A stretch of 64,000 nt of DNA from the NCBI RefSeq assembly GCF_000258765.1, contig NZ_AJLT01000054.1, forward strand, positions 1-64,000, in the 5' to 3' direction. The notes beneath the pieces were generated by a model, which saw only the letters and a program-made list of their open reading frames with translations, did no database searches and was not told the origin of the DNA. The DNA is from Gillisia marina. GTDB taxonomy: Bacteria; Bacteroidota; Bacteroidia; Flavobacteriales; Flavobacteriaceae. The translations under genes were made by a program, and so were the position numbers. Of the stretch, positions 1 through 50,587 are shown one piece after another. Numbering within the stretch: position 1 is the stretch's first letter; each line of letters begins with the position of its first letter.

Positions 1-2625
1 TGGTGTGGTCAAAATCGGGGCTTCGGGAACAGTTGTAAAACTCCATATTTCGGATTCACTGGAACCTCCTGCACTGACCGAAAAGACACGCCAATAATAG
101 GTTGTACTATAAGAGAGTCCAACAGGGATTACTGATGTCCCAGTGAGACCGCTCTGAGTATCAATAATAGTATTGAAACTGGAATCTTCTGCTACTTCCA
201 AGGTATAAGTATCTGCTCCAGTGGAAGTATTCCAGCTCAAGCTTGGAGTTACAGAAATATTGATAGAAAGATCTTCAGGCGATAATAAAACCGGTGCTAA
301 TGGTATCGTCGTAAAACTCCAGGTATCTGACCAAATTCCTGTTCCTGTATTATTTTTTCCACGAATACGCCAGAAGTATAGTCTATTATTGGTGAGAGAC
401 GAAACTTGAACCGAAATATCTGATAGACCATTTAAATCTACTATTTTATTAACAAAATTCATATCAGTAGCTACCTGTATTTCATAAGTATCAGCACCAT
501 TTAAAGGTGTCCAGCTTAAAGTTGGATTAACGGAAACTTCAATAGCATCATTGGATGGCGAAACGGGAAGGGGAGAATTTGCCATATAAAAAATTTCAGA
601 AGCACTAAGAGCCGTCTTATAAAGGCGAATCTCATCCATAGTGCCTTCAAAACTTCTTAGCCCATCATTCCCAGATCCTATAGAAAGAGGAAGTTGATTG
701 ATACTTATAGGACTTGCTGAGCTTAAACTAATAGAATTATTTTCGACCCCATCGATATAAATTCGAAGAAAAGATCCATTATAAGTGGCTGCAATATGCA
801 TCCAGGTTTCCCCATCTGTAGGGTAATCAACTTGAGAATCCACTCTAAAAGTATCTCCAGAACTATTCTGATTAAACCGAAAGAATACATTACCGTCCAC
901 AGAAAGAGATAACTCATAACCATTTATATTGTTATGATCTGCTTTCTTGACAAGATATTGAATTGCAGTTTTTTCAGGTCTTACCCAGGTTGCAATTGTC
1001 ATTGCATCAGTAATATCCAGTGAAGCATTATCTATTACATTGGCAACTTGATTAGGATTATTGAATCTTAATCCTAGTCCATCTTTACCCACTTCCCAAA
1101 TGGGATTACCAGTAACATTAGCATTATTAGAATGTTCAGATACATCAATAAGGTTGTTACCGCTACCTTCCTCTAATTTCCAATGACCAACCAAAATAGC
1201 ATTTGCTGAAGCTGGGGTAGTTTTGAAATTCCAAATAGAGGACCATTCACTCTCCCCGGTGCTAGTTGTAGAGCGAACCCTCCAATAATAAATAGCATTA
1301 TTTGCAAGGCCATTAATAAGGACCGAATTCGAGGTAATGTTGGATTGGTTAAAAAAGGTGCTTGAGAAATTATTTACTTCTGAAACCTGAACTTGATAGC
1401 TCAATACATTCGTTCCTGAATTCCAGCTTAGATTAGTTTCTAAGGGAAGTTGTGTATAATTATTCTTAGGAGCTTCCAAAGTAGGACCTTGTAGTTTATC
1501 GCTTGCAAGAACTCCTACTACTTGAGAACTAGTTGATGCTAGAATTGCAACTTCAGAGGTGAAATTACCTTTAATGCTTGTGGGATTATTATAGTCCCCT
1601 GTGATCAATCTTCGTTGATCTCCAAAAGAAATATTTGGAACAGATGACTCATTATACACAATATTATCACCGCCCGTATCTTCAGGATATACAACTCTCA
1701 ATTTATTAAGGATATCGTTCAAAATAACAATTGGTCTTGTTCCTTGATCGGAAACATAATAAAGATTGTCCCAGTTTCCATTGGGACGGCGTACCAGCAG
1801 TGCAACCGTTGGGTAGCCAGCCGTATCATAAGAAGTTTTAATGGCACAAAATAACGTGCCATCACTTGAAACAGCCATATTTACATGGTCATCTGCCATT
1901 CCTCCCTCAATATTTAAAGCTGATTGAGAAGCTGGCACCTCATCACTTGACCAAGAGGAAGGATTTGTACCATTTAGATGTGTTTTAAAGCCGAACCTTT
2001 CGTTATGTTGATTTGACCAAAAAACACCCATCTTCCCGGGAAGGGCAATAATGGCACCAATATCATCTGAATCTAAACCCGTGGCAACGGTTATTGGAGC
2101 ACTCCAACTTTGATAAGGAGAATTACTCCAGGTTACGTAAATTTCCGTATTACCATCATAAGCCATCCACATTCTTCCATTATCATCCATATCTATATTA
2201 GCAATCTCTACGGTTGATGGAAGATTAATTGTTACTGTGGAGGGTCTTTGTGACCAAAATTGATATGTGCCTAAAGACGATAAATATTCTAGAGACACCA
2301 ATTGAGACGAAATTCCTTGAAAAAGTAAGATGTGTACAATATTACCAACAACCTTAACATCTGCTTTGGAATTTGTTTTCGATGAGAGTTGAAGTAGATT
2401 TGTCCAAGTTGTACCGTCCAATCTCCAAAGGTGCGTACCAGAAGAGTTAGCTAAAACCGCCCAATGTTTATCGGCATAAAACCATACCTTAGCCTGTGGT
2501 TTTTCACCAGTATTTGTGGACACTGAAATTGGATTTAAATTTGTGAGGGAGGTAAAACCTTCCTGAGCATTTAACCTTACAGTGACCGATAAAATAAAAA
2601 TTAGAAAATATATAGAAATTTTCAT
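1..2625 (-). CDS. Large secreted protein with propeller-like, Fn3 and LamG domains (partial, runs off left edge)
   Basis: The frame is open for 875 codons from an ATG at 2625 to the window edge, so the C-terminus is missing. Residues 1-20 form a signal peptide ending near LNAQ. Residues of about 25-380 are rich in short Trp- and Asp-containing repeats and read like a beta-propeller (inference). An Fn3-like module follows at about 385-470, with the usual SW and YYWRV motifs. A LamG/concanavalin-like domain lies at about 477-680 (GHWKLEEGSG at its start, MDEIRLYKTALS at its end). Two more Fn3-like modules occupy about 682-770 and 773-875. This build is common in Bacteroidota cell-surface adhesins and glycan-binding proteins, which often end in a type IX secretion sorting domain; that part would lie outside the window. 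An in-frame ATG at 2637 is an alternative start. Confidence 0.85.
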   Translation of the reverse strand, partial: MKISIYFLIFILSVTVRLNAQEGFTSLTNLNPISVSTNTGEKPQAKVWFYADKHWAVLANSSGTHLWRLDGTTWTNLLQLSSKTNSKADVKVVGNIVHILLFQGISSQLVSLEYLSSLGTYQFWSQRPSTVTINLPSTVEIANIDMDDNGRMWMAYDGNTEIYVTWSNSPYQSWSAPITVATGLDSDDIGAIIALPGKMGVFWSNQHNERFGFKTHLNGTNPSSWSSDEVPASQSALNIEGGMADDHVNMAVSSDGTLFCAIKTSYDTAGYPTVALLVRRPNGNWDNLYYVSDQGTRPIVILNDILNKLRVVYPEDTGGDNIVYNESSVPNISFGDQRRLITGDYNNPTSIKGNFTSEVAILASTSSQVVGVLASDKLQGPTLEAPKNNYTQLPLETNLSWNSGTNVLSYQVQVSEVNNFSSTFFNQSNITSNSVLINGLANNAIYYWRVRSTTSTGESEWSSIWNFKTTPASANAILVGHWKLEEGSGNNLIDVSEHSNNANVTGNPIWEVGKDGLGLRFNNPNQVANVIDNASLDITDAMTIATWVRPEKTAIQYLVKKADHNNINGYELSLSVDGNVFFRFNQNSSGDTFRVDSQVDYPTDGETWMHIAATYNGSFLRIYIDGVENNSISLSSASPISINQLPLSIGSGNDGLRSFEGTMDEIRLYKTALSASEIFYMANSPLPVSPSNDAIEVSVNPTLSWTPLNGADTYEIQVATDMNFVNKIVDLNGLSDISVQVSSLTNNRLYFWRIRGKNNTGTGIWSDTWSFTTIPLAPVLLSPEDLSINISVTPSLSWNTSTGADTYTLEVAEDSSFNTIIDTQSGLTGTSVIPVGLSYSTTYYWRVFSVSAGGSSESEIWSFTTVPEAPILTTP

Positions 2626-2637
2626 TTTAGTCCTCAT

Positions 2638-2919: not shown

Positions 2920-3845
2920 CTACAATACCGGTGCTTTATTTATTAAATTATACCGACGAGCTTTTTGAAGTCCAGACCCGTGAAATAGCATATTAAATAG
3001 TTCTATAACAAGCTCTTTTGTGTAAATACCACCTCTTTCTTTGGTCCAATCGTCCAGATTATCCCAATCTATTACGGAGGGGTGACCAGGACGAATTACA
3101 GCATATACTTCTTTATATCTAAGTGCCTTTAATGCTGAAACTCTGTGATTTCCATGGAGCAATACAAATCTGTACGCATTATTTTTTTTTTAAAAAATAA
3201 CCATTAATAGGATCCTTATCCATTCTATTAGACTGATAACCATTTTTTTTTGATAGAATTATAAACCGATATTAATCTTTTGAATTCAGTATTCCCATAT
3301 TGAATGGTGTGTGGGCCAAAGAAAATCCAACCCTGCCCATCTGAATTTCTATTTATGACCTTTAAAAAATAGCTGAGACTATATTTATTTAATGTCCATA
3401 GTCTGCTGATTAACCGATTGTCTGGTGGCCAATTATAAATTGGGAATAAGGGTCTATTCTCACAATTCAACATTGCCTCCTGAACATTTTTTGGCTGAAA
3501 ATTTCTATATAAATGTGAGATCGTTGAATCTTGAAAAGAGAGATTATCATCTAAAATATATTCCTTTAAAGTTTCTACAAATGGGTGCCAGCCTTTGTCT
3601 CTATAGGAAAAACCTACTCTAGAAATAATAGATTCAATATCAATTTTAAAGGGTATCGTATAAGGATCTTCGAAATTAATTTGAATTGTATTTGGCAGGT
3701 CTCCTGAAAATAATTTATATCGAGGAATTTGCCACCAGTTTCTACTATCTCCTACCAGTACATAGCCAAATTTACGGGCTAAATAGGCCAAATAAGGCCT
3801 TATCCTAAAAATCCTAAAAACCATTCTTCTATTTTTACCCAGCAT
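2920..3845 (-). CDS. Unknown protein with C-terminal ParB/sulfiredoxin-like HGNHR domain (two frameshifts)
   Basis: As sequenced this is two fragments. Removing one base from each of two homopolymers (T9 on the plus strand at 3243-3251 and T10 at 3182-3191) joins them into a continuous 307-residue protein. The joined region reads like a ParB/Srx fold: a helix ending SIKKNGYQ, then DPINGYFLKK, then a strand into LLHGNHRVSALKAL, which matches the DGHHR-type phosphate/nucleotide-binding motif of that superfamily. The first 200 or so residues are not recognised; they are rich in aromatic residues (for example RNWWQIPRY) and carry no signal peptide. The gene is last in the antiterminator-gmd-fcl-ABC operon, 99 bases after the ABC gene. 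Relatives of the fold include DNA-binding ParB, sulfiredoxin and the serine kinase SerK, so a kinase or phosphotransfer role in glycan assembly is possible but unproven. Confidence 0.7.
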
Positions 3846-3944: not shown

Positions 3945-5745
3945 TTATACTTCTTGTAACTCAACCATTTTCTTGAATTTAATTGAGTGAAGAACCAATT
4001 CGTCAAAATTTCCTTCATCTACAATTTCTCCATTATTTAGGACAATAATCCGATCTGCATTTTTAATTGTGGACATACGATGGGCTACAATCACAATGGT
4101 GTATTTTCCTCTTAATCTTTCAATTCCTTTTTGAATGGCATTTTCTGTTTCAGAATCTAAAGAAGAGGTCGCTTCATCCAATACAAGGATATCCACATTT
4201 TTAAACAATTCTCTAGCAATAGATATTCGTTGCTTTTGTCCTCCACTTAAATTAATACCATTATTCCCCAACATGGTATTTTCCTTCTCAGGGAGTTCCG
4301 ATATAAATAAATTAATAGAAGCCTGCTCTATTGCCCATTCAAAACGCTTATAATTTTCCAAAGTTGGTTCAGACCAAAAACTGATGTTATTAAAAACAGT
4401 ATCACCAAACACTACCGGTTCCTGAGTAATATATCCTATTCTCCTTTGGTAACTTTCTTTGTTAAGGTTTAAGCTATTCACTCCATCTATTAAGAGCTCT
4501 CCACTACTAAACGGCATTAAACCCGATAGAATATTAATTAATGTAGTTTTACCGCTCCCACTCTCACCTACAATCGCAATTGTCTGATTTTTAATTATAT
4601 TCAAATTTATATTATTTAGGATTTGAGTATCTGAATAGTGGAAGCTAACTTTTTTTTAATTCAATAGTTTTATTAAACTTTTCCATTTTAACTTCTCCAT
4701 CAATTTCTGCTGCCATTTTTAACTCTTGTTCGAAACGCGTCATATTTTCCATAGACCCAGAAACTCCTAGGAAATCATTATAATGAGTTTGCATTTGCAT
4801 TAAGGCAGACAAGGCTCGGTAAAAGAACAAAAGGCTTATAAGAATGGGTCCCATGCTTCCATTTAACAAGCTAACCTGCACTAGAATCACTATACTAACA
4901 ACTATAATTAATATTGGCTCCCTAATAGAATTAACTATAGAATTCAATTTTCCAATTCTTCTATTATGATCTTCGATATTATGAATACTACGTTTTAATT
5001 TATTATTATATTCCCCTATATACCCTGTTGCTTTGAGATATTTAAAATGAGTAACAAACTGCAGAATTAAACCCTGATAAAAATTTAAACCTCTAGTGAG
5101 TTTTTTTGATGAAACTTTTGTTGCCTTATAAATGGCTTTATAAATAAAATTGGTTAGCCCCCCGCCAATGCAAATTAGTATAGCGAATCTGGCATCTATA
5201 TAAAAAGCGAATACCATATAAACAGTTACCATTATTACCTGTTGAAATGCACCAAAATAACCTAGATAGGCTTTAGATATTCGCATTACTTCTCCAGACA
5301 TTGTATTTTGTATTCTTCCTGCATCTGCCATTGCAAAAGCCTTAAAAGACATATGTGACAATGCATTGGAAAGTTTAATCCTGAGGCTTTTTATGAAAAA
5401 TTGCTTTAAAATTACACTGTAAATACTATTTATGTATTGGGCTATTCCTTTTAGGATAAAGAATAAGCTCATTAGTATTAAAATAGTTAAAAGGCTTGGA
5501 GTTAAACCTATGTTTTTCATCCCCTCCAATAAAAATCCTAATTTACCGAGGCTTTCCGGATCCACCGTAGAGGAGTCGCCCACCATTTGCAGCAAGGGTA
5601 AGAACATGGCCAAACCAAAACCATCTAAAATCCCTACGCCGATGCTTAAAATAACACTAATAAAAATGCGGTATTTGAGTATTCTATAGAAGTAAGTAAA
5701 GTTATAAAAGTACTTTTCTTTTAAAGTTGTTGTTTTATTATGCAT
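3945..5745 (-). CDS. ABC exporter, MsbA/PglK-type, probable lipid-linked glycan flippase (one frameshift)
   Basis: Joined across a one-base excess in the T8 run at 4650-4657, this is a 599-residue half-transporter with fused membrane and ATPase parts, the normal size for the family. Residues 1-345 contain about six hydrophobic segments. The ATPase domain starts near 365 with Walker A GESGSGKTT at 393-401, an intact LSGGQKQR signature, and Walker B ending VLDEATSSLD with the catalytic Glu present. Such exporters flip lipid A or lipid-linked oligosaccharides across the inner membrane. Its place between fcl and the ParB-like gene suggests that it moves a fucose-containing lipid-linked glycan (inference). 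No Wzx-type flippase is present in the window, so this protein could also serve the larger locus. Confidence 0.85.
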
Positions 5746-5925
5746 GGAACTTAGTGTTTTAAGAAGCTAAAAGTTTACGCTGCTTATCTTGCGAAAGATG
5801 TTGACATTTTATTATTGGAGGTTATATTAAACTCATTCTAAAAATATGCTTGAGTTGTGAGGAAGATTTATAAGAGTTATGCTGGCCTTATTTTAAACAA
5901 ATTTATCAATACTACTTGTCCCATT

Positions 5926-7044
5926 TTATGGCTGTACAAGTACATCTATCCCTGTGTATTCCTTATACATCATTTGGATTCCTTCAGCTATTTCAATTTT
6001 ATGGTGCCAGCCAAATTTTTGTAGTTTAGTGGGATCTGTGATTTTTCTTAATGTTCCTTCAGGTTTATCACCATTAAAGGCAAGTTTTCCTTTAAAACCT
6101 ATCAATTCTTTAGTGAGATATGCTAGATCTTTAATCGAGATTTCTTTACCAGTCCCAATATTGAGATGACAATTTCGAATTTGTTTCTCTTCAGATAATT
6201 CTATGAGGTCTGAGAAATTAATTTCATTCATTATAAAAATGCAAGCTTCTGCCATGTCTTCGCTCCATAAAAATTCCCGCAAGGGCTTTCCGCTTCCCCA
6301 TATTTCAATCTCAACTAAATTGCTATCATTTTCTTCTATAAGATCAATCCCATATTTTGATAGTGTTTTTAAAATATTCTGCTTAGGGGATTTACCTGTT
6401 ATTTTCTCTATAGGTAATTTATTTAAATCTTCTCTTATGGTTTCCCAATCATTCATCTCTATGGCTCTTCCCAAATGAATTTTACGTATTATCGCTGGTA
6501 GTACGTGAGAAGTTTCGAGATTATAATTGTCATTGGGACCATAAAGATTTGTTGGCATTACAGAGATAAAATTTGTAGCATATTGAAGATTATAACTTTC
6601 GCACATTTTTATTCCAGCTATTTTGGCAATAGCGTATGGCTCGTTTGTATATTCTAATGAACCTGTGAGTAAATATTCCTCCTTTATTGGTTGTTTACAA
6701 TTCTTAGGATAAATGCAAGTACTTCCTAAAAAGATCAATTTCTTCACCTTATTTAAATAACTGTAATGAATGATATTTGTTTGAATCATTAGATTCTCAT
6801 AAATAAAGTCTGCTCTATATTTATTATTGGCAACAATGCCACCCACTTTTGCAGCTGCTATAAACACATAGTCCGGTTTACATTTTAAGAAAAAATGAGA
6901 TACTTCTATACAATCCAAAAGATCCAACTCATTGCGAGTTCTTGTAATTAAATTGGTATAACCAGCATCCTTTAATTTTTTTAAAATAGCACTACCCACG
7001 AGGCCGCGATCTCCGGCTACAAATATTTTAGCATCCTTCTCCAT
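5926..7044 (-). CDS. fcl: GDP-L-fucose synthase
   Basis: This cytoplasmic short-chain dehydrogenase performs the epimerase and NADPH-dependent reductase step that turns GDP-4-keto-6-deoxymannose into GDP-L-fucose. The nucleotide-binding loop GDRGLVGSAI is at 11-20 and the catalytic pair Y137-x3-K141 is present in EPYAIAK. At 372 residues it is longer than the E. coli enzyme of about 320. The extra stretch, at about residues 190-240, looks like the insert common in Bacteroidota versions. It lies 18 bases downstream of gmd on the same strand, so the two are almost certainly co-transcribed and act in sequence. Confidence 0.95.
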   Translation of the reverse strand: MEKDAKIFVAGDRGLVGSAILKKLKDAGYTNLITRTRNELDLLDCIEVSHFFLKCKPDYVFIAAAKVGGIVANNKYRADFIYENLMIQTNIIHYSYLNKVKKLIFLGSTCIYPKNCKQPIKEEYLLTGSLEYTNEPYAIAKIAGIKMCESYNLQYATNFISVMPTNLYGPNDNYNLETSHVLPAIIRKIHLGRAIEMNDWETIREDLNKLPIEKITGKSPKQNILKTLSKYGIDLIEENDSNLVEIEIWGSGKPLREFLWSEDMAEACIFIMNEINFSDLIELSEEKQIRNCHLNIGTGKEISIKDLAYLTKELIGFKGKLAFNGDKPEGTLRKITDPTKLQKFGWHHKIEIAEGIQMMYKEYTGIDVLVQP

Positions 7045-7062
7045 AATATACCTTCCTTTAAA

Positions 7063-8175
7063 TTATTCATGAAAATTTAAGATTTTAAATCCACCTTCTT
7101 TTAAACAGGATTCTTTACTCATTAGTTCCAAATCGCTTTCCATCATTTCCTTTACCAAACTAGATAGCGTATACTCAGGAAACCAACCCAATTTAGAATT
7201 GGCTTTGGTTGGATCTCCTATTAACAAATCCACTTCTGTTGGTCTAAAATATCTAGGATCTACAGCTAAGACCTCTTTACCCTCCACTAACTGATAATCT
7301 ATATTTGAGCAATTCTTTATATACCCTTTTTCATCCACTCCTTCACCAATGAATTCCAATTCTATTCCTACCTCGCCAAACGCCATTTGCACAAAATCTC
7401 TAACGCTAGTAGTTTTACCTGTTGCTATTACCCAGTCTTCTGGCTCCCTTGCCTGTAATACCATCCACATAGCTCTAACATAGTCCTTGGCATGTCCCCA
7501 ATCCCGTTTTGCATTTAAATTTCCTAGGTAAATTTTATCTTGCATTCCCAAAGCTATTCTGGAGACCGCCCGTGTAATCTTTCTGGTCACAAAAGTTTCA
7601 CCTCTATTAGGAGATTCATGATTGAATAAAATACCATTACATGCAAATAAATTATAAGCCTCTCTATAATTAACTGTGATCCAATAAGCATAGAGCTTAG
7701 CAACAGCATAGGGGCTTCTAGGATAGAACGCAGTAGTTTCAGATTGGGGAACTTCTTGAACCTTCCCGTAAAGCTCTGAAGTTGATGCTTGATAAATTTT
7801 AGTTTTATTTTCTAAACCCAATAGTCTAACTGCTTCCAATATTCTTAATGTTCCCAATCCATCCGTATTTCCAGTATACTCAGGAATTTCGAATGAAACT
7901 TGAACATGGCTCATTGCTGCCAAATTATAAATTTCATCTGGTTGAATCTTATTAATAAGCCCCATTATTGAAATCGCATCATTCATATCACTATAATAAA
8001 GAATGAAATTCCTATTTTCTATATGTGGATCTTGATACAAATGATCAATTCTTTCTGTGTTGAATTGGGAGGTTCGTCTTTTAAGTCCATGTACTTCATA
8101 ACCTTTCTTTAATAAAAAATCACTTAGATAAGCTCCATCCTGTCCAGTTACTCCTGTAATTAATGCTCTTTTCAT
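7063..8175 (-). CDS. gmd: GDP-mannose 4,6-dehydratase
   Basis: This enzyme makes GDP-4-keto-6-deoxy-D-mannose from GDP-mannose, the first committed step to GDP-fucose. The Rossmann loop GVTGQDG sits at 8-14. The active-site set is complete: T132 and E134 in STSELYG, and Y156-x3-K160 in SPYAVAK. Its 370 residues match the family. It is followed directly by fcl. It lies 288 bases downstream of the antiterminator gene, in which gap I see neither another gene nor a clear terminator, so the operon probably reads through. Confidence 0.96.
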
Positions 8176-8463
8176 ATTTTGTTATTAATGGTTAATCTAA
8201 ATCAGAATATTACTTCAAAAAGTCACAAATTGGTTTTGGTGAATTGATTTTTAATTCCCTTCAATAATTTTCTAATATTGAATCTATAAAGGGTTTACCT
8301 GACTAGGTTTAGTGAGTGCTGAATAAAAATGTTGAATCTCATAAAAGTTGTGAAAGACTTTGTACAGAATAATCGCAATAAGAGAATAGTTCTAAATCTT
8401 CATAAATAAGTTAAGTACTGAATTCTCTAATAATTACACATTATTATTTGAAAATAACTTAGA

Positions 8464-8941
8464 TTATTGAGCAAGCTCCCTGATTCTGACACTAACAACA
8501 CATCCTAAATTATCTAAAACCAAACTCAACCTTTTAGAGCCTACATGTTTTATTACTCCTTCTTGGCTCTTAAAAGCACCAGACTTTATTTGCACCTTTT
8601 TCCCCGAATATAGATTATCTACTCTAAATTCAGCGTAGCAATCATTATCTAACCAATCTTTGATTAGTTGGATTTCCTTATCTTTTGCAACTGCGGGTTT
8701 TCCTAACCAGTATAAATACCTTACGATACCTGGAAACTGAAAAACTTTTTCTCTGTCTTTCTCATCTAATCTTACAAATACATAAGATCTAAATAATGGC
8801 ACTTTAATTTTTTTTTGCTCTATCGCTCCATTTCTTAACCTCTACAATAGTTGGGCAATAATTCTCAATATTAGCCGCATCAAGATACTGTGATACTTTT
8901 ATCTCTGCTTTTGGCTTAGTGTAGATAACAAACCACCTCAT
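8464..8941 (-). CDS. NusG/UpxY-type transcription antiterminator of the polysaccharide operon (one frameshift)
   Basis: Removing one base from the T9 run at 8808-8816 joins an N-terminal stretch starting MRWFVIYTKPKAE (ATG at 8941) to the rest, giving 158 residues. The N-terminal half is a NusG NGN domain, with the RWFVIYTKP start and the PLFRSYVFVRL strand. The C-terminal third is a KOW-like domain (KKVQIKSGAFKSQEGVI). This is the layout of UpxY/RfaH-type specialised NusG paralogues. In Bacteroides such proteins are encoded first in capsule operons and bind the operon's own leader to prevent early termination. Here it is likewise the first gene of the gmd-fcl-ABC operon, behind a long untranslated region. 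Confidence 0.88.
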
Positions 8942-9867
8942 AAATTCAAGTTTTTAATTAATCTTATTTTTATGCAGTACCAAATAGCTTATTTATAGGG
9001 CATAGGTTTTCCACTAAAGGTGTTTTGGTTTAAAACCTTTTTTAGTTACACGATTAATCCAGAATCCTATTAATAAGGTTCAAGAATAAATACTAGTAAA
9101 ATACAAGAACTAATCTTAAAGAAAGTTTAGCAGAATTTGCCGGGAAAGTTGAAGTAATTGATTTTCATCCTTCATTTTTTTAAATTTAGCACGTAGGATA
9201 TTTGTAAAAGAATTAAACAATAATATCGATACTCGTAAGGTAAATACTAATTATAGCTTCGCTTTGTAAGTCCCATGATTGAGAATTACATACAAATAAT
9301 TAAAGTTAGGGATTCTAATAACAACTTCTGTAGAGTAAGAAAATCTAGTTGTATTATTTAGAAGAACTAATTTATAGATTAAAGTTAATTTTAAGAATAA
9401 GAAAAATGTTAAAATTTCAAAATATTTATGTAAGAATTAAAAGTGTAAGCTAAAAATTCAATTTTAAATAAAATTTAATATTTAAATTATTAATATCATA
9501 AATTAAACAGGTTTATACATTGAAAAATAATATTAATTCTTAATTCAGGATTCAATATTGAAAATTCAAAAACTTACCAAATTGATTTTCTAATTTTTTT
9601 TTATCCGCCTAATTGACCGTTGATCTAATTTCTTATAAATGTATGTAAGAATATCAAATTTTATAACTTATAAAAAAAACATTAATAATCTCAAGCAATT
9701 ATAAAATTGAATACAAAAAATGATGAAGTTTCTTCCATTATTACTTAAATCTATTTAACATTCATATTTCAATAACATCTATTCACCTATCAAAACCCCC
9801 ACTTCAGCGTTTTTATCAAAATATAAGTAGCTGAAAATCATACATTTGCCTAACAAAACAAAAAAAA
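8942..9867. other. 926-base AT-rich gap: probable long leader and promoter region of the antiterminator operon
   Basis: No credible gene is found on either strand. The part at 9360-9780 is extremely AT-rich. A possible RNA hairpin on the minus strand lies at about 9013-9046 (arms ACTAAA and TTTAGT with an inner GGTTT/AAACC), roughly 75-105 bases before the antiterminator start. No exact TAnnTTTG element is seen on the minus strand. The plus-strand promoter of the STAS gene sits at the right end. By analogy with UpxY systems, the leader is the likely target of the antiterminator (inference). Confidence 0.5.
9841..9848 (+). promoter_or_regulatory. Putative -7 promoter element for the STAS gene
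   Basis: TACATTTG matches the Bacteroidota -7 consensus TAnnTTTG and lies 19 bases before the start codon at 9868. No clear -33 TTG was found at the expected distance. Confidence 0.5.
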
Positions 9868-10155
9868 ATGTCTGAAGTTGTTTTAAAAAATGCTGAACTA
9901 ATTACGCTCAGAGGAAGCTTAACTTCAATGAATGTGAGTGAGGTTCAAGAGGATATTGAAATGGAACTTCACTATGCTCCAAAAATCATTTTAGATCTTA
10001 CGCAATTAAATAAGCTGGACATTGCAGGAGTTTTTATGCTGATGATTGTAAAGCAGAAAGCAAAAACAAATGGTAAAAAAATATTGATTTTAAATAGTTG
10101 TAATGAGATTGTTACACAAGCAATTAAAAAAATCGGGGATGAAGAATATTATTGA
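9868..10155 (+). CDS. Small single-domain STAS protein
   Basis: This 95-residue protein has the alternating strand-helix pattern of an anti-sigma-factor antagonist (STAS) domain: IILDLTQLNKLDIAG in the middle, then a helix, then the strand KKILILN. In classical SpoIIAA-type antagonists a phosphorylatable Ser or Thr follows the Asp in D-x-S/T-G. Here the equivalent reads D-I-A-G, so the usual phosphosite is missing. It may therefore act as a fixed partner-binding protein. The gene stands alone on the plus strand, has its own promoter-like element, and ends at a strong terminator shared with yajC. No kinase or anti-sigma gene is next to it. Confidence 0.75.
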   Translation: MSEVVLKNAELITLRGSLTSMNVSEVQEDIEMELHYAPKIILDLTQLNKLDIAGVFMLMIVKQKAKTNGKKILILNSCNEIVTQAIKKIGDEEYY

Positions 10156-10220
10156 CGTGGTTTAATTCCTTAATGAAATACATCCCTAATGTATTTTGGA
10201 ATTAGATCGCGTTGATTAAT

Positions 10221-10254
10221 AAAAAAGCCTGTTGAAGATTCAACAGGCTTTTTT
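10221..10254. terminator. Bidirectional intrinsic terminator between the STAS gene and yajC
   Basis: A 9-bp perfect stem (GCCTGTTGA at 10227-10235 with TCAACAGGC at 10240-10248) and a 4-base loop are flanked by an A-run on the left and a T-run on the right. It can therefore terminate the convergent genes on both strands. Confidence 0.92.
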
Positions 10255-10276
10255 AATGAGAATTAATTTCAAGAAA

Positions 10277-10586
10277 TTATTTCTTTTCAATAGTTTTTTT
10301 CTCTGAAACTGGTTCATTCAATTTTTTACTCATTTCCATTGAAATGGAAGAGCGATCAAAAGTGATTTTCCCTGCACCTGTTTCAATTATAACTGAATTA
10401 TTTTTCTCGCTAAAATCAACGATCTTACCATGCATCCCACTTTTAGTAATTATCCTATCACCTTTTTTAAGCTCAGATGCAAAAGTTTTTTCTTGCTTAG
10501 CGCGTTTCATTTGTGGGCGTATCATAAAAAAAATACACTACCACAAACATTAATATTATTGGTGCAAACTGGGTTAATTGTTCCAT
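10277..10586 (-). CDS. yajC: Sec translocase accessory subunit YajC (one frameshift)
   Basis: Removing one base from the A8 run at 10526-10533 (plus strand) restores a 102-residue protein starting MEQLTQFAP at 10586. It has a single membrane helix (PIILMFVVVYFFMI) followed by RPQMKR and a small cytoplasmic beta domain containing GDRIITKSGMHGKI, which is the YajC hallmark. YajC associates with SecDF and SecYEG in the inner membrane. The gene follows the DUF1573 gene by 21 bases in a nusB-DUF1573-yajC operon. As sequenced, the transmembrane part and the soluble part are in different frames. Since yajC is a conserved housekeeping gene, a base-calling error is the easiest explanation. Confidence 0.93.
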
Positions 10587-10607
10587 AAATTATTTTAAAA
10601 GTTTTGT

Positions 10608-11072
10608 TTATCCGGCAGTTTTATCTTCGCCAGCTTCAACAAAAGCTTTGATTCTTATTTGTTCAGATCCGTTTTCTGTATTTGCTGTTACAGTTACAGT
10701 TTTGGTAACTTGACCTTGTCCAGATCCGTTAAATTTCACTAACATTTCTCCAGATTCTCCCGGAGCTATAGTTTCATTTTTTGGATAAGTTGGCACTGTA
10801 CATCCACAAGTACTAGTTGCATTGGTGATTACCAAAGGTCCGTCTCCTGAATTAGTGAATTTAAATACGTGCTCTACTTCTGTTCCTTTCGCAATGTTAC
10901 CAAAGTCGAATTCTTCTTCTTCAAAAGTAAGTTCTGCGAAAGCGGCAACTTGAGCATCACGCTCTGCTGCAGTTTCCACATTTTCTGCCTTCACTTTACT
11001 AGAGGCATCATCCTTACAAGAAGTAAAGAATAACGCTCCAACAGCCGCTATCATTAAAAATCCTTTTTTCAT
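10608..11072 (-). CDS. DUF1573 lipoprotein
   Basis: The protein has 154 residues. An N-terminal hydrophobic stretch ends in the lipobox FFTSC, with Cys19 as the lipidation site, so it is likely anchored in a membrane and exposed to the periplasm. Residues 45-150 form a DUF1573 domain (an immunoglobulin-like beta sandwich) with the conserved TCGCT motif and a P-x-K-N-E-T-I-x-P-G-E stretch. The family's function is unknown. It is often found between nusB and yajC in Flavobacteriia, as here, and is probably co-transcribed with both. Confidence 0.9.
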   Translation of the reverse strand: MKKGFLMIAAVGALFFTSCKDDASSKVKAENVETAAERDAQVAAFAELTFEEEEFDFGNIAKGTEVEHVFKFTNSGDGPLVITNATSTCGCTVPTYPKNETIAPGESGEMLVKFNGSGQGQVTKTVTVTANTENGSEQIRIKAFVEAGEDKTAG

Positions 11073-11118
11073 AATATTTGATTTAAAGTTAAACGTTAAA
11101 AATAATAAATTTTCCTGA

Positions 11119-12063
11119 CTACATAAGACCTCGTCCCATTTTATTTAAACGGTTTTGATCCTTATATTCTTTAGATAATTTATCTAAAATTCCATTTATA
11201 AAAATGCTGCTTTTTGGAGTGCTGTATTCTTTAGCAACTTCCAAATACTCGTTAATACTCACCTTTACCGGAATAGAAGAAAAATGAAGCAATTCACAAA
11301 TTCCCATTTTAATAAGGATCGTATCTATTTCCGCAATACGTTCCTTATCCCAATTAGGAGTTTTATCTACCATTTCTTTCGCCAAATCCTCATCATTTGC
11401 TAAAGCTTTCCTAAACAACTTTGCTGCGAATTCTTCATCATCCGGACTCTTAAAAAGCTTTGGAATTTTAGCATCCTCTGGAGTATGCTCCTTCAATTTA
11501 TTTAAATATTTAAGGATGGCTGTATTCACCAATGGAAGATCATCTACCCAGGTTAATTTCGTATCCTCAATATAATCATAAAGTTTATCGTTAGGAGCAA
11601 TAAATTCCTTCAGTAAAAGAATTATAAAGTCTTTATCCTCTTTAAAAGTTGATTCCCGTGTAGTCATGTAATTTTCGAAAGCATCACTATTGCGAATTTC
11701 TTCCCAAAGAATAGCAACATACTCGCCATCCCTTTTCCAGTGACTAATCCCACGTTCTTCCCAAGCATCCTGTAAATACTGGTTATTTTCCAGAATTTTA
11801 ATAATGCTGTTCTCTACGAATTTTTTGTTGGGATCTACTTCTTCTTGTGTTGGAAGAAACTTCTTTTGAGATTTTTCCAGATAACTTTCTGAATAATCTT
11901 TGATTTCGGTGATTAATTTCAGCATCAATAAAAACAAATCGTACATCTCCAACATACTTTTCTGAAGGAATTTCTCTTCTGTACTGAAGTTTTTGTTTTC
12001 ACTTTGATGGAATGCATATAGTGATTGCATTACCTTAACTCGAATATGTCTTCTGGTTAACAT
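11119..12063 (-). CDS. nusB: Transcription antitermination factor NusB, long Bacteroidota form
   Basis: The C-terminal 130 or so residues carry the NusB helical fold, including WDKERIAEIDTILIKMGICELL and KVSINEYLEVAKEYSTPKS; the KxxINExxxxAK motif is diagnostic. NusB works with NusE (S10) on boxA RNA to support rRNA transcription. At 314 residues it is twice the length of the E. coli protein. The N-terminal extension begins MLTRRHIRVKVMQSLYAF, which resembles the normal NusB start, so the family appears to have a large insertion in the middle. It is the first gene of the nusB-DUF1573-yajC operon. Confidence 0.93.
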   Translation of the reverse strand: MLTRRHIRVKVMQSLYAFHQSENKNFSTEEKFLQKSMLEMYDLFLLMLKLITEIKDYSESYLEKSQKKFLPTQEEVDPNKKFVENSIIKILENNQYLQDAWEERGISHWKRDGEYVAILWEEIRNSDAFENYMTTRESTFKEDKDFIILLLKEFIAPNDKLYDYIEDTKLTWVDDLPLVNTAILKYLNKLKEHTPEDAKIPKLFKSPDDEEFAAKLFRKALANDEDLAKEMVDKTPNWDKERIAEIDTILIKMGICELLHFSSIPVKVSINEYLEVAKEYSTPKSSIFINGILDKLSKEYKDQNRLNKMGRGLM

Positions 12064-15752: not shown

Positions 15753-18267
15753 ATGAAATATCTGTATTTAACGCTTATCCTTATTTTTTCTTTCAATGTA
15801 AGCGCGCAAGAAAATTTAGACCTCTCCTACTATCTTCCCCAAGACATTTCTTATAATCCGGAAATATCTACGCCACAAGAAGTTCTTGGGTATATCCCGG
15901 GAGAATGGCACGTAACCCATGATTTGTTAGTTGCTTATATGCGAACTTTGGCTTCGGAATCTCCTAGAATTACACTAGAAAACAGAGGAACTACTTTTGA
16001 AAGTAGACCGCTACTCCTACTTGTTATTACTTCCGAAGAGAATCAGAAAAATATAGAACCTATTCGCAAGAATCATATAAGTTTAACTGAAGCCGATAGT
16101 GAGAATCTAAAAACCGAAGAGATGCCAATTGTGGTTTATCAAGGATTTTCTATTCACGGAAACGAACCAAGTGGCTCTAATGCAGCTTTGTTAGCAGCTT
16201 ATTATTTAGCCGCAGGACAAGGCGAAAAGATTGATCAGCTTCTTGACAATACTGTGATTTTATTTGACCCTTCGTTAAACCCGGATGGATTACAGCGTTT
16301 TGCATATTGGGCGAATACGAATAAAAGCAAAAATTTAAATCCAGATCCACAAGATAGAGAGTTTAGTGAAGTTTGGCCGGGCGGAAGAACCAATCATTAT
16401 TGGTTCGATATGAACCGGGATTGGTTACCAGTACAATTACCAGAATCTAGAGCTAGAATAACCACTTTTCATAAGTGGCAACCAAACATTCTTACAGATC
16501 ATCATGAAATGGGATCTAATTCCTCATTTTTCTTTCAGCCGGGAATTCCTTCCAGAACCCATCCGCTTACACCGCAAATGAATCAAGATCTTACCCGAGA
16601 AATAGGAACTTATCATGCAAAAGCATTGGATAAGATTGGCTCCTTATATTATACTCAAGAAGACTATGATGATTTTTATTACGGAAAAGGCTCGACTTTC
16701 CCTGATATCAATGGAAGTATCGGGATTCTTTTTGAACAAGGAAGCTCTAGAGGCCATGTGCAAGAAACAGATAATGGTTTACTAACGTTTCCCTTCACTA
16801 TAAGAAATCAGTTTACCGCCGCGCTATCTACTTTGGAAGCTGCAGGCAGTATGAGAAGTAAGATTTTGGACTATCAACGTTCATTCTATAAGAATTCCAG
16901 AAATACCATGGGGAAAGATGCTTATGTATTTGGAAGCGAAAAAGACAAAAACAAGGCTTATCATTTAGCCGAAATCTTAAAACGTCAGCAAGTCGAAGTT
17001 TATGAGATCAAAGAAGATTTTGAACTTAATGGCAAAAAATTTAAACAAGGTGCGGGATATATAGTTCCTAAAAATCAACGGCAACATCGAGTTGTTGAAG
17101 CAATGTTCGAGAAAAGAACCTCTTTTACAGATAGCTTGTTCTACGATATTTCGGCTTGGTCCTTTCCTTTAGCATTCGATCTTGAATTTAATAATAGTGT
17201 ACCGTTTAAATACGTAGGTGAGAAGATAGATAGCCTTCAAAAACCAGCTATAAATACAATTAATAAGAGCGATTATGCTTATTTAATGGAATGGCATGAT
17301 TACAATGCTCCAAAAGCACTCAATCTTATCTTAGAAAAAGGTCTTAGGGCTCAGGTTGGAATGAAAAGTTTTGAAGCAGACAATAAAAAATATGATTATG
17401 GAACAATTTTAATTTCTGTACAAAATCAGAAATTAGATGCTACGGAAATTTTTAATTTCTTGACAGAAGTATCCGAAAAAGCCAATGTTTCAATCACTGG
17501 AGTTACTACCGGACTAACAAAAGGCATCAATTTAGGAAGTAATTATTTTAGATCCTTAGAACCTCAAAAAGTAGCCATCATTGTAGGTGATGGAATCACG
17601 CCCTACGATGCAGGAGAGATCTGGCATTTATTCGATCAGCGTTATGATATGAATATTACAAAGTTGGACACCAGAAACTTCGGAAGAGCAGATCTCAGCA
17701 AATACACCGATATTATTTTACCAAATAGCTGGGGAACTGCTTTAGAAAAAAAAGGACGCAGATAAGCTAAAAGATTGGGTTAAAGATGGAGGTACTTTGA
17801 TAGGTTATAAAAATGCTGCAAAGTGGTTTAACACCAACGAATTTATGAAACTGGAATTTTTAGAGAACAAAGTGAAAGCTAAAAACGTAAGTTTTGAAGA
17901 GCGCAATGACTTTAGAGGAGCACAGGGAATTGGGGGAGCTATTTTTGAAGCTACCCAAGATAGATCTCATCCCGTGAATTTTGGGTATACAGATAATAAG
18001 ATTGCTTTATTTAGAGATACTACAATTTTTGTAAAAGCAGATTCCACAAGCTACAATAACCCTATAAAATATACTGAAAAACCTCTTTTAAGCGGTTACA
18101 TTAGCAAACCAAATTTAGATTTATTAGCAAATACAGTTCCTTTTAGACATGTTGGGATGGGTCGCGGTAATGTGATTCTATTTACCGACAATACAAATTT
18201 TAGAGGTTTTTGGTATGGAACCAATAAATTGTTGATGAATGCTATTTTCTTTGGTGATGAAATGTAA
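15753..18267 (+). CDS. Secreted M14-family zinc carboxypeptidase (one frameshift)
   Basis: Removing one base from the A8 run at 17746-17753 gives a continuous 837-residue protein. Residues 1-18 are a signal peptide ending SAQ. The M14 catalytic domain spans about residues 50-370: zinc ligands are in HGNEPSG and in the later DHHEMG, NPDG precedes the substrate site, and the catalytic Glu is probably in LFEQGSSRG. The rest contains a glutamine-amidotransferase-like fold seen in large Bacteroidota M14 proteins (VAIIVGDGI, then the tail around PFRHVGMGRGNVILF). It probably trims peptides in the periplasm or outside the cell. The break falls inside the C-terminal domain, so even the truncated product would keep the catalytic part. 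Confidence 0.9.
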
Positions 18268-27854: not shown

Positions 27855-29442
27855 ATGAAAAACCTTTTTTTTGCAATCCTATCCGGATTACTGCTTGCCT
27901 TCGCATGGCCCACATATGGTCTTCCTCTTTTATTATTTTTTGGTTTTATACCGCTATTATATGTTGAATACAAACTAAGAACAGCTGGTGTTAAATTTTT
28001 AAAATTGAAGGTATTAGGATATAGCTATTTATCTTTCTTTTTGTGGAATCTTATTACGACCTATTGGCTATATTTTTCGACTCCATTTGGGGGAGCATTT
28101 GCCATTCTAGTGAATTCCCTTTTAATGGCCTTGGTGTTCTTACTCTACCACATAGTTGCCAAAAGAACAAACTTCAAGGCTTCCTCTGCTTTTCTGATCT
28201 GTTTGTGGATAGTTTTTGAAAAATTGCATTTAAACTGGGATTTTTCCTGGCCTTGGTTAAATCTAGGAAATGGATTTTCAAATTATATAAACTGGGTTCA
28301 GTGGTACGAATACACAGGGACTTTCGGTGGAACTTTATGGATATGGGTAGTAAATATGGCTGTTTTTAAATTCATATTACTCTATAGGGAACACCGGGCA
28401 AAAGAGATTTTGGTTCGAAGTATTGTAAAAATCAGTTTAATAATTTTTCTTCCTATTACTATTTCCTATATAATTTTAGCTAATTATACTGAAGGCAACA
28501 AAAAAAATAGAAGCGGTAATTCTTCAACCAAATATAAATCCTTACACAGAAAAATATAATACTACCGATACTAGAATTGGAGAATTACTATTGAAGCTAA
28601 GCGATTCTTTAGTTACAAAAAATACTGATTTATTGGTAGCTCCGGAAACTGTGTTTGCAGATGGAACAGCATTGCCACAATTTCAACGTTCAGAAGCTAT
28701 TTACTTTGGTAATCAACTAATAAGCAACCATCCAAATTTAAATTTCTTAAGCGGAATTTCCATGTTTGATAGGTTTAAAGATCCTGTGAAAGCGGGAAAA
28801 CAAAGTAATTATATTGGACCAAACGATTGGTACAACGACTATAATTCTGCTTTCTTTCTGAATTCCGATAGCAAGCCCGAATTATATCATAAATCGAAAT
28901 TAGTTGTCGGAGTCGAAAACTTTCCATATCAAAACATTCTGAAACCATTGCTTGGAAATATTATGATTGATCTTGGTGGAACCGTTGCAATGAAAACCAC
29001 GCAAGAAGACAGAGAGGTTTTCAGATTGAATAACTCAGAAGCTACAGCTCCAATTATTTGTTATGAATCTGTTTACGGTGAATATGTAACAGGATATGTA
29101 AAGAACGGGGCTAATTTTCTTACAATCATTACAAATGATGCTTGGTGGGATAATACGCAAGGCCATAAACAGCATTTGAGTTATGCAAGCTTGCGAGCGG
29201 TAGAAACAAGAAAATCTGTAGTTAGAAGTGCTAATACAGGAATTTCAGCATTTATAGATGAAACAGGACAGGTTACTAAAAGTTTGGGTTATGAGAAACA
29301 GGGAAGCATAAAAAGTAAAATCACTGTGAATAATAAGCAAACCTTCTATGTAAAGCACGGAGATTACATTGCAAGGATTGCTCAGTTTCTCGCTTTATTC
29401 TTATTCTTATTTTGTATCATAAAATATAAGCGGAGTCGATAA
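27855..29442 (+). CDS. lnt: Apolipoprotein N-acyltransferase Lnt (one frameshift)
   Basis: Removing one base from the A8 run at 28500-28507 joins two fragments into a 528-residue protein. The N-terminal 215 residues hold about six membrane helices. The rest is a nitrilase-type domain with the E-K-C triad: Glu in LLVAPETVF, Lys in YHKSKLVVG, Cys in APIICYESVYG. Lnt adds the third acyl chain to lipoproteins at the periplasmic face of the inner membrane. The break separates the membrane part from the catalytic part and would abolish function if real, which favours a sequencing error. Confidence 0.92.
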
Positions 29443-49488: not shown

Positions 49489-50587
49489 CTATTTTATCTT
49501 TAGAAATTCGATAATCTTTTGAGATGCAAAGCCATCTCCATAAGGGTTCACCTTGTCTAAATTATTTGTAGGATTAGTTAGAACTTCTTTAGCTTTTTCA
49601 AATATTACTGAAGAATTAGTTCCAACTAAATAGCAAAATCCAAATTTAATTCCTTCCATTCGTTCTGTGTGATTCCGTGTTACCAAAACCTGCTTATTAA
49701 AACTGGGGGCTTCTTCTTGAAGACCTCCGGAATCTGAAATAATAAGATCACACTTCTGCATTAAAAAGATCATAGTAGGATAAGTAACAGGAGAAATTAG
49801 GCTAATATTTTTTACTTCCCCTAAAATTTCCTTTACAGGACCAGATACATTAGGATTAAGATGAAGGAGATAAATAATTTGAACATTCTCTAAATGAGAT
49901 AGATTTACCAATGCTTCACAAATACTTTTTAAACCAGTTCCAAAATTCTCTCTTCTGTGTCCGGTTACAAGGATCAATTTTTTTTTCCTCAATTATAAGA
50001 TCTTTGACTCTAATAATTTCTTCAGATTCTTGATTATCAATCTTTTTGATTGCCCATTTTAGTGCATCTACAACCGTATTTCCGGTAATTAAGATATCTT
50101 TTGTATCTACCATTTCATTCTCCAAATTTAGTTTTGAGTCTGAAGTTGGCGCAAAATGAAAATCGGCTAATTTACTTATAAGTTGTCTATTTGCTTCTTC
50201 AGGAAACGGAGACTTTTTATTATAAGTTCTTAAACCCGCCTCAATATGACCAATTTTAATGTTCTTATGAAAACTACCCAAAGCTACCATAGCTGCTGTT
50301 GTAGTATCACCTTGAACCAAAACCACATCTGGTTTATAGTCATCTAAAACAGGGTCTATAGAATTTAATATGGAAGCGCTCAGAGAGTTTAGACTTTGAC
50401 CTGTTTTCATCAAACTGAGATCATAATCCGGAATGATGTCGAAAAAATCCAATACCTGATCCAACATTTCTCGGTGCTGAGCTGTTACACACACTTTATA
50501 AGAAATATGCTGACGATCGAGTTCTTTAATGATCGGAGCCATTTTAATAGCCTCGGGCCGTGTACCAAAACAAAGAAGAATTTTCAA
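49489..50587 (-). CDS. wecB: UDP-GlcNAc 2-epimerase, non-hydrolysing (WecB) (one frameshift)
   Basis: Joined across the T9 run at 49978-49986, this is a 365-residue epimerase that makes UDP-ManNAc from UDP-GlcNAc. Motifs include CFGTRPEAIKMAPIIKEL at the start, VVLVQGDTTTAAM, HIEAGLRTYNKKSPFPEEANRQL, TGHRRENFG just after the junction, and SDSGGLQEEAPSFNK. These are diagnostic of WecB rather than NeuC. No wecC (ManNAc dehydrogenase) is seen in the window, so UDP-ManNAc is either used directly or oxidised by an enzyme encoded elsewhere. Confidence 0.93.

Follow-up and report, generated by a model that had tools for sequence, protein, structure and literature searches.

The ParB/sulfiredoxin (Srx) fold is known from DNA segregation, from the repair of oxidised peroxiredoxin and from two serine kinases. 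Among its solved representatives are SbnI, the serine kinase in the synthesis of staphyloferrin B (PDB 5uje, 5ujd and 6nr6), SerK, an ADP-dependent serine kinase of archaea (PDB 5x0b), a Pyrococcus protein that we take to be a SerK homologue (PDB 1vk1), sulfiredoxin (PDB 3hy2, 3cyi and 6ky4), and the CTPase domain of ParB and Noc (PF02195). The kinase activity of SbnI requires Glu20 and Asp58, according to PMC9641203. Binding of nucleoside triphosphates (NTPs) is not universal among ParB-fold proteins: ATP, CTP and GTP binders have been reported, and 17 of 28 purified proteins bound no NTP, as given in a 2025 survey of the fold (PMC12704722). The domain-centred part of that survey started from PF02195, a model that does not match the proteins described here, and the word "polysaccharide" is absent from its main text. 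In the titles and abstract openings of open-licence literature, no ParB/Srx-fold protein in a glycan locus was found; PMC7117936 and PMC12904642 concern something else, ParB standing there for the chromosome-partition protein in a proteomics table or for part of a web address.

The window analysed here is a stretch of 64,000 nucleotides from Gillisia marina (contig NZ_AJLT01000054.1, hereafter C54). A gene on its reverse strand (2920..3845, about 306 residues, the frame being interrupted twice at A-runs) encodes a predicted ParB/Srx-fold protein of a glycan locus. Its relatives form a family for which no Pfam match is better than E 0.02 and which is found repeatedly in surface-glycan loci; such a family would extend the fold to polysaccharide assembly and offers a candidate for phosphate chemistry in glycan operons that are as yet uncharacterised. 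The recurrence in sugar-polymer loci suggests a little-studied phosphate-handling step in the making or export of the polymer. We judge the family to be a new glycan-locus branch of the known ParB/Srx superfamily.

Fold and conserved residues

A structure model was built for the Litoribacter homologue (295 aa; m052b6e4d7992) from a five-row alignment, with the pieces of the window protein as extra rows. The model has a mean pLDDT of 58.6 and a pTM of 0.58 and is of low confidence outside the core, its ten-residue pLDDT means being 66 to 90 over residues 171-240 and 88-92 over residues 81-100; a second model, with the Reinekea member (27% identical) in first place, had a mean pLDDT of 39.7 and was too poor for use. 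Nearly all of the 50 Foldseek rows shown for the Litoribacter model were ParB, Noc, Srx, SerK, SbnI, PadC or KorB (best E 6.3e-3, none below 1e-3), and the list was headed by sulfiredoxin, Noc, SbnI, ParB, PadC and SerK. VIA-align gave Z values of 5 to 6.3 for ParB, Noc, SerK, SbnI and Srx, which, being below 8, might by themselves reflect a common arrangement. The individual values were 6.3 for ParB (80 residues aligned, rmsd 2.8), 6.2 for 1vk1 (94, 3.8), and 6.0 each for SbnI 5uje (93, 3.5), Srx 3hy2 (97, 3.9) and SerK 5x0b (101, 5.5); plainly unrelated rows scored 3.0 and 2.1, and two rows assigned to neither class scored 5.6 (2hwj) and 3.8 (4ovb). When a seven-row profile was searched against PDB sequences, nine matches were obtained up to E 10, all of them SbnI or sulfiredoxin (best E 0.0077), and a 21-row profile returned the same nine (best E 0.0011). 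Since these profiles agree independently with the modelled structure of the 51%-identical homologue, a ParB/Srx fold is supported for the family.

A reading of the window made from the sequence alone (the sequence-only reading) had placed a ParB/Srx domain in the C-terminal third of the protein and had pointed to kinship with a serine kinase and sulfiredoxin. The domain and the kinship stand, the nearest solved relatives by sequence being SbnI and sulfiredoxin and the model resembling SerK, ParB and Srx alike; the confinement to the C-terminal third does not. In the 295-aa homologue the fold is predicted to run from residue ~50-57 to ~283 and to hold a low-confidence helical insertion (~100-172), so that the unrecognised N-terminal two thirds would partly be the fold itself.

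At E up to 0.01 the NCBIfam SerK model matched two of the 21 members, the better one at E 0.0013, a result that is near chance, given that a transposase model matched one of the 21 at E 0.0035 in the same scan, and too weak for assignment. In PHROGs, a ParB-like model matched 2/21 members (best E 4.1e-4) and two further ones 1/21 each; a DNA-binding model (2/21) and a DNA methyltransferase model (1/21, E 0.009) appeared in the same scan. The only Pfam matches of the 21 members were DUF1508, DUF3887 and ParBc_2, in one member each (E 0.023, 0.046 and 0.083), with no helix-turn-helix (HTH) family among them. PF02195 matched none of the 21 at E up to 0.1 and did not match the window gene at E up to 1; its single match in the genome at E up to 1 lies on contig C42, in a protein with a GERR motif and an adjoining ParA-like ORF. 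Alignment of the family with this genome's own canonical ParB by hhalign was weak (probability 1.2%). A higher hhalign probability (96.9%, E 1.4e-10) was obtained over the C-terminal half with ParB/Srx-like proteins of a G[ED]WD type (P0006 in L017, L070 and L069), which differ in their N-terminal region and form a separate subgroup. This second subgroup is found at L017 9244-10038, L069 8749-9582 and L070 9524-10198, L017 and L070 being glycan loci by eye.

Conservation was counted over the 21 aligned members. Three members found after the alignment (L078, L079 and L080) are not part of these counts; L064 (truncated at a contig end), L067 (a GGQNR variant), L051 (a partial match), and subgroup P0006, L069 and L070 (matches of the C-terminal half only) had been dropped beforehand. 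The HGNHR motif singled out by the sequence-only reading (3142..3156, reverse strand) is invariant in its G, H and R throughout the family (21/21). It occupies the place of the phosphate-binding G-x-x-R motif of the superfamily, present here as G-x-H-R in every counted member, and is aligned in the profile alignment with GVHR of SbnI and G-x-HR of sulfiredoxin. The family thus keeps the His of sulfiredoxin, unlike ParB and Noc, which have Arg-Arg (GERR) in place of His-Arg; with ParB and Noc it shares the fold and a Ser-Ile...Gly helix before the motif. The x of the motif is Asn, Gln, Lys, Tyr, His, Phe, Ile or Trp and never Cys (0/21), whereas in sulfiredoxin a Cys at this position is presumably the nucleophile.

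Other conserved positions (codons all on the reverse strand) are Trp150 in the helical insertion (3396..3398, invariant in 21/21), Glu187 where the helix preceding SIKKNGY begins (3285..3287, Glu in 20/21), Gly202 and Trp265 (20/21 each), Ser197 (18/21), Arg190 (17/21), and an HPFV motif (3576..3587; His 15/21, Pro 15/21, Phe 13/21) at the start of the helix that follows the first strand of the fold (residues 81-91 of the model). SbnI, the best PDB profile match, has in common with the family the ParB/Srx fold, membership of a biosynthetic pathway, and a similar helix and strand after the G-x-H-R (GVHRYTSLKALGCKKVPV against GNHRVSALKALRYKEVYAV). What sets the family apart from it is an additional helical insertion, a conserved W...G...F motif in the C-terminal region, and the lack of conservation of SbnI Asp58: the corresponding position (numbering from 6nr6) is Asp in 1/21 members and His in the window protein. 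SbnI Glu20 counts to residue 184 (Arg26 of 6nr6 against Arg190), three residues from Glu187, in a loop of uncertain alignment. No acidic residue is invariant in all 21 aligned members, and the Asp that precedes G-x-x-R in SerK is not kept, the residue before G-x-H-R being Gly in ten members, Glu or Ala in two each, and Asp, His, Gln, Thr, Lys, Arg or Asn in one each. With G-x-H-R invariant and Asp58 of SbnI not conserved, the phosphate-binding side appears to be kept and the known catalytic side lost.

Glycan loci and distribution of the family

The sequence-only reading had placed the gene after an antiterminator, gmd, fcl and an ABC exporter. This order is borne out by Pfam for the last three genes and by eye for the antiterminator, all of them lying on the reverse strand. 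Directly upstream lies the ABC exporter (3945..5745; PF00005, PF00664), split near an A-run at 4650-4657; it is preceded by a GDP-fucose synthase-like epimerase gene (5926..7044; PF01370), which we take to be fcl, by the GDP-mannose 4,6-dehydratase gene gmd (7063..8175; PF16363; 62% identity over 380 residues to the Litoribacter gmd), and by the C-terminal part of a putative antiterminator (8464..8802) without a Pfam match, which was read by eye as NusG/UpxY-like. Downstream, a large laminin-G/Fn3 protein (1..2637, reverse strand; PF13385, PF00041) runs off the contig end.

The membrane part of the exporter is 66% identical over 354 residues to a Litoribacter exporter which sits one kinase gene before a family member. 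When six genomes were searched for the P-loop kinase found beside the Litoribacter copies, two gave a match, Litoribacter and the genome of the window itself, in the latter on contig C86. The matching end of C86 carries a secretion sorting tail (PF18962), then a nucleotidyltransferase-like gene whose frames are broken, a fragment faintly similar to protein kinases (E 0.22, given no weight), two P-loop kinases, GT4, GT2, an acetyltransferase and further glycosyltransferases, in the gene order of Litoribacter and with identities of 62-66% for the nucleotidyltransferase-like protein, 61% for GT4, 65% for GT2 and 41% for the kinase. These kinases reach Pfam kinase models only below cut-off, as do the kinase neighbours in member loci; the nucleotidyltransferase label was given by eye to a protein matching no Pfam family, and neither the 458-aa nucleotidyltransferase-like protein nor one of the kinases has a match among PDB sequences. 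No family member was seen on C86, where Litoribacter has its second copy. C86 is probably the other half of the same glycan operon, and C54 and C86 are probably neighbours, broken inside the large laminin-G/Fn3 protein, to which the PF18962 tail would then probably belong; the join rests on synteny, since the compared contig ends share no 21-mers. Glycosyltransferases, kinases and polymerase-like ORFs syntenic with Litoribacter were observed over positions 1-11536 of C86 (locus L087).

Twenty-four members were placed in their neighbourhoods: the window, two in L018, and one each in L011, L014, L015, L016, L019, L054-L063, L065, L066, L068, L078, L079 and L080, the loci being unequal in length and some of them contig fragments. 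The expectation that homologues would recur in glycan loci was upheld, 21 of the 24 lying in surface-glycan loci (17 by Pfam/phmmer evidence on neighbours, 4 by eye), or 19 of 22 if the near-duplicate pairs L061/L062 and L079/L080 are each counted once. A glycan-specific Pfam/phmmer neighbour was found for ten members (window, both of L018, L014, L015, L016, L058, L059, L061 and L062), a Pfam-backed ABC transporter with glycosyltransferases recognised by eye for five (L019, L055, L065, L066 and L068), and looser support for L057 (DegT/formyltransferase) and L063 (cytidylyltransferase/asparagine synthase), and four were assigned by ORF reading alone (L054, L078, L079 and L080). The flippase is the sole glycan-related gene seen in L061 and L062, where the next genes are housekeeping ones by eye. 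The members of L011, L056 and L060 are not in glycan loci.

Of the 31 same-strand slots adjoining a member within 300 bases, 6 hold an ABC exporter or a flippase of Wzx type; among the 260 other ORFs of these loci, 12 are of this kind (p 0.001). The background of 260 ORFs includes unproven genes, which flatters the enrichment; the p value is 0.0036 without near-duplicates, and upstream slots give 5/17 (p 0.0004). This test was post hoc and left the window out, some search seeds had been chosen for adjacency to members, and two transporters that the seeds had not picked up were included after inspection of a hydrophobicity scan by eye.

A ParA-type motif (KGG-x-GK[ST], in ORFs of at least 90 aa) was found neither in the window nor in 21 of the 22 member loci, which span 4-31 kb; the exception is L011, where two MinD-like ORFs lie at a distance of 4-5 kb from the Acetoanaerobium member. 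By this motif scan no parA adjoins the members, and the parAB genes of this genome lie elsewhere, on C42.

In L058 the member lies directly upstream of a PEP mutase-cytidylyltransferase gene and downstream of a Capsule_synth gene. The whole row (4866-11809) comprises Capsule_synth, the family member, PEP mutase-cytidylyltransferase, a TPP enzyme, Fe-ADH and LicD, and by its gene content is a predicted phosphonate-glycan locus with a ParB/Srx-fold protein, that is, one for phosphonate or phosphodiester decoration. In L015 a 409-aa protein (6377-7606) adjoins the family member and combines, by eye, a LicD/nucleotidyltransferase-like N-terminal part with a C-terminal part that has its own GKHR; it has no Pfam match and is perhaps a natural fusion of both functions. 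A nucleotidyltransferase-like family with a motif like KYVLLRWWQDYPEIP..GEDLDIL, recognised by eye and without a Pfam match (L018 8479-9855, L070 6753-7088), recurs near both ParB/Srx-like subgroups, and its C-terminal part resembles nucleoside-diphosphate kinase by eye.

The family is patchily distributed and common in one order. Protein searches found it among 299 genomes of the taxonomic family only in the genome of the window, and across the phylum in 3 of 395 genomes. Matches to the seven-row profile came from 5 of 345 genomes of the phylum (two with the C-terminal part only), 1 of 398 genomes of the Reinekea phylum (the seed itself), 3 of 251 genomes of the Litoribacter order (one C-terminal only) and 15 of 128 genomes of another order in the same phylum (three partial); with the 21-row profile, 4 of 145 genomes of the Reinekea order were matched, and a scan of genome contigs gave two loci, in Litoribacter ruber and Reinekea blandensis. 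A viral origin was considered and rejected, as searches of viral contigs and phage records with the family proteins gave no relative. A plasmid origin was rejected likewise, the sole plasmid record matched being a 2.6 Mb one of Acetoanaerobium noterae that is labelled plasmid; the member in it lies, by eye, outside any glycan locus.

Possible functions in polysaccharide assembly

We tentatively favour, at somewhat below even confidence, a soluble ParB/Srx-fold enzyme of surface-polysaccharide assembly that would carry out a phosphoryl transfer before export. The protein would bind a nucleotide (ATP, ADP or another NTP) or a phosphorylated sugar in the G-x-H-R pocket and would move a phosphoryl group to or from a sugar, an amino acid or a lipid-linked repeat unit on the cytoplasmic side, after which the neighbouring exporter or flippase would move the glycan out. 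Phosphoryl transfer is plausible, and is the first choice because the nearest solved relatives carry it out and because some of the neighbours are kinase-like, nucleotidyltransferase-like, LicD or PEP mutase proteins. The chemistry would differ in detail from that of SerK and SbnI, as the catalytic Asp is missing. It is possible, if rather doubtful, that the family amounts to a new class of enzyme: a kinase or phosphotransferase of ParB/Srx fold, specific to cell-surface glycans, that would act with P-loop kinases and a nucleotidyltransferase-like protein and would phosphorylate a sugar, an amino-acid substituent or a lipid-linked repeat unit just before flipping, through a Glu/G-x-H-R site distinct from that of SerK and SbnI.

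The main rival, which we consider somewhat unlikely, is a non-enzymatic nucleotide switch or adaptor, in which an NTP or a nucleotide sugar would gate the neighbouring flippase or exporter, or the glycosyltransferases, much as CTP acts on ParB and Noc. Such a role would agree with the ABC exporter or Wzx directly adjoining the gene in several loci, with the loss of the SbnI catalytic Asp while G-x-H-R is kept, and with the survey (PMC12704722), in which several proteins of the fold bind ATP, CTP or GTP although no reaction is known for them. It accounts less well for the phosphoryl-transfer neighbours (kinase-like, nucleotidyltransferase-like, LicD and PEP mutase) in L018, L087, L015 and L058, and the near-invariant Glu suggests chemistry.

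An unlikely alternative is a tailoring enzyme whose pocket would hold another phosphate-bearing ligand (a sugar nucleotide, PAPS/PAP or a lipid phosphate) for a non-phosphoryl reaction. Sulfotransferase-like genes are indeed near the members of L014 (Pfam below cut-off), L063 and L078 (both by eye), and a pyruvyl transferase is near that of L014, with similar genes by eye near those of L068, L079 and L080; yet in the ORF lists neither kind of gene was noticed beside the window gene or the Litoribacter copies, and the nearest solved relatives, SbnI and sulfiredoxin, act on ATP.

Integrity of the gene and DNA binding

The gene consists of three ORF pieces in three frames of the reverse strand (3845-3228, a short middle piece, and 3180-2920). 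The first frame break is at a run of nine A in the coding strand (3243..3251) and the second at a run of ten A (3182..3191), and relatives are uninterrupted at both. Litoribacter ruber has two intact relatives with open frames of 302 and 307 aa, 51% identical over query residues 13-299 and 12-300, which are stop-free at both junctions; this continuity bears out the claim that a single gene needing two frame repairs is present. When 290 codons were aligned with one of the L. ruber relatives, 146 encoded the same residue and the differences at codon positions 1, 2 and 3 numbered 118, 75 and 168, the pattern, by this comparison, of a protein under selection.

Runs of at least 7 A or T number 61 in the window, 26 of them of at least 8, and a homopolymer of at least 7 lies within 90 bases of 21 same-strand ORF junctions. 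Part of these junctions are ordinary gene boundaries and part are cuts in recognisable genes, namely the ABC exporter and two genes recognised by eye, one N-acyltransferase-like and one wecB-like. Both frame breaks most likely stem from sequencing error, which is also the simplest cause, since several homopolymer junctions cut recognisable genes. The alternative, in which the breaks are genuine and the cell has stopped making the protein, could draw on the occurrence of two breaks within one 0.9-kb gene that is present as a single copy in its genome (search at E up to 0.1), but other genes of the window and of C86 also break, at homopolymers or in frame, the codon positions bear the mark of selection, and the relatives are intact in a conserved gene order, so that we regard a dead gene as quite improbable.

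The least probable reading, an orphan ParB acting on DNA in partition or in transcription control of the locus, could appeal to the fold similarity to ParB and Noc, to the PHROGs ParB-like and DNA-binding matches, and to the additional description of SbnI, the closest relative, as a transcriptional regulator (PMC9641203), but is refuted as far as checked and is held very improbable, because PF02195 finds the ParB of C42 beside its ParA-like gene and not the window gene, ParA-type motifs occur in member loci only as the two MinD-like ORFs of L011, the window has no parS-like site within 3 mismatches of the consensus, the motif is G-x-H-R instead of GERR, and no HTH family is among the Pfam matches.

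A promoter and terminator scan gave 40 promoter-like sites against 36.6 in shuffled sequences, and no terminators against 3.4 expected in shuffles. ORF breaks at homopolymers run across many genes of the window, so that pseudogene calls on single genes of this assembly are unsafe; examples lie at 4650-4657, 28500-28507, 49978-49986 and 17746-17753.
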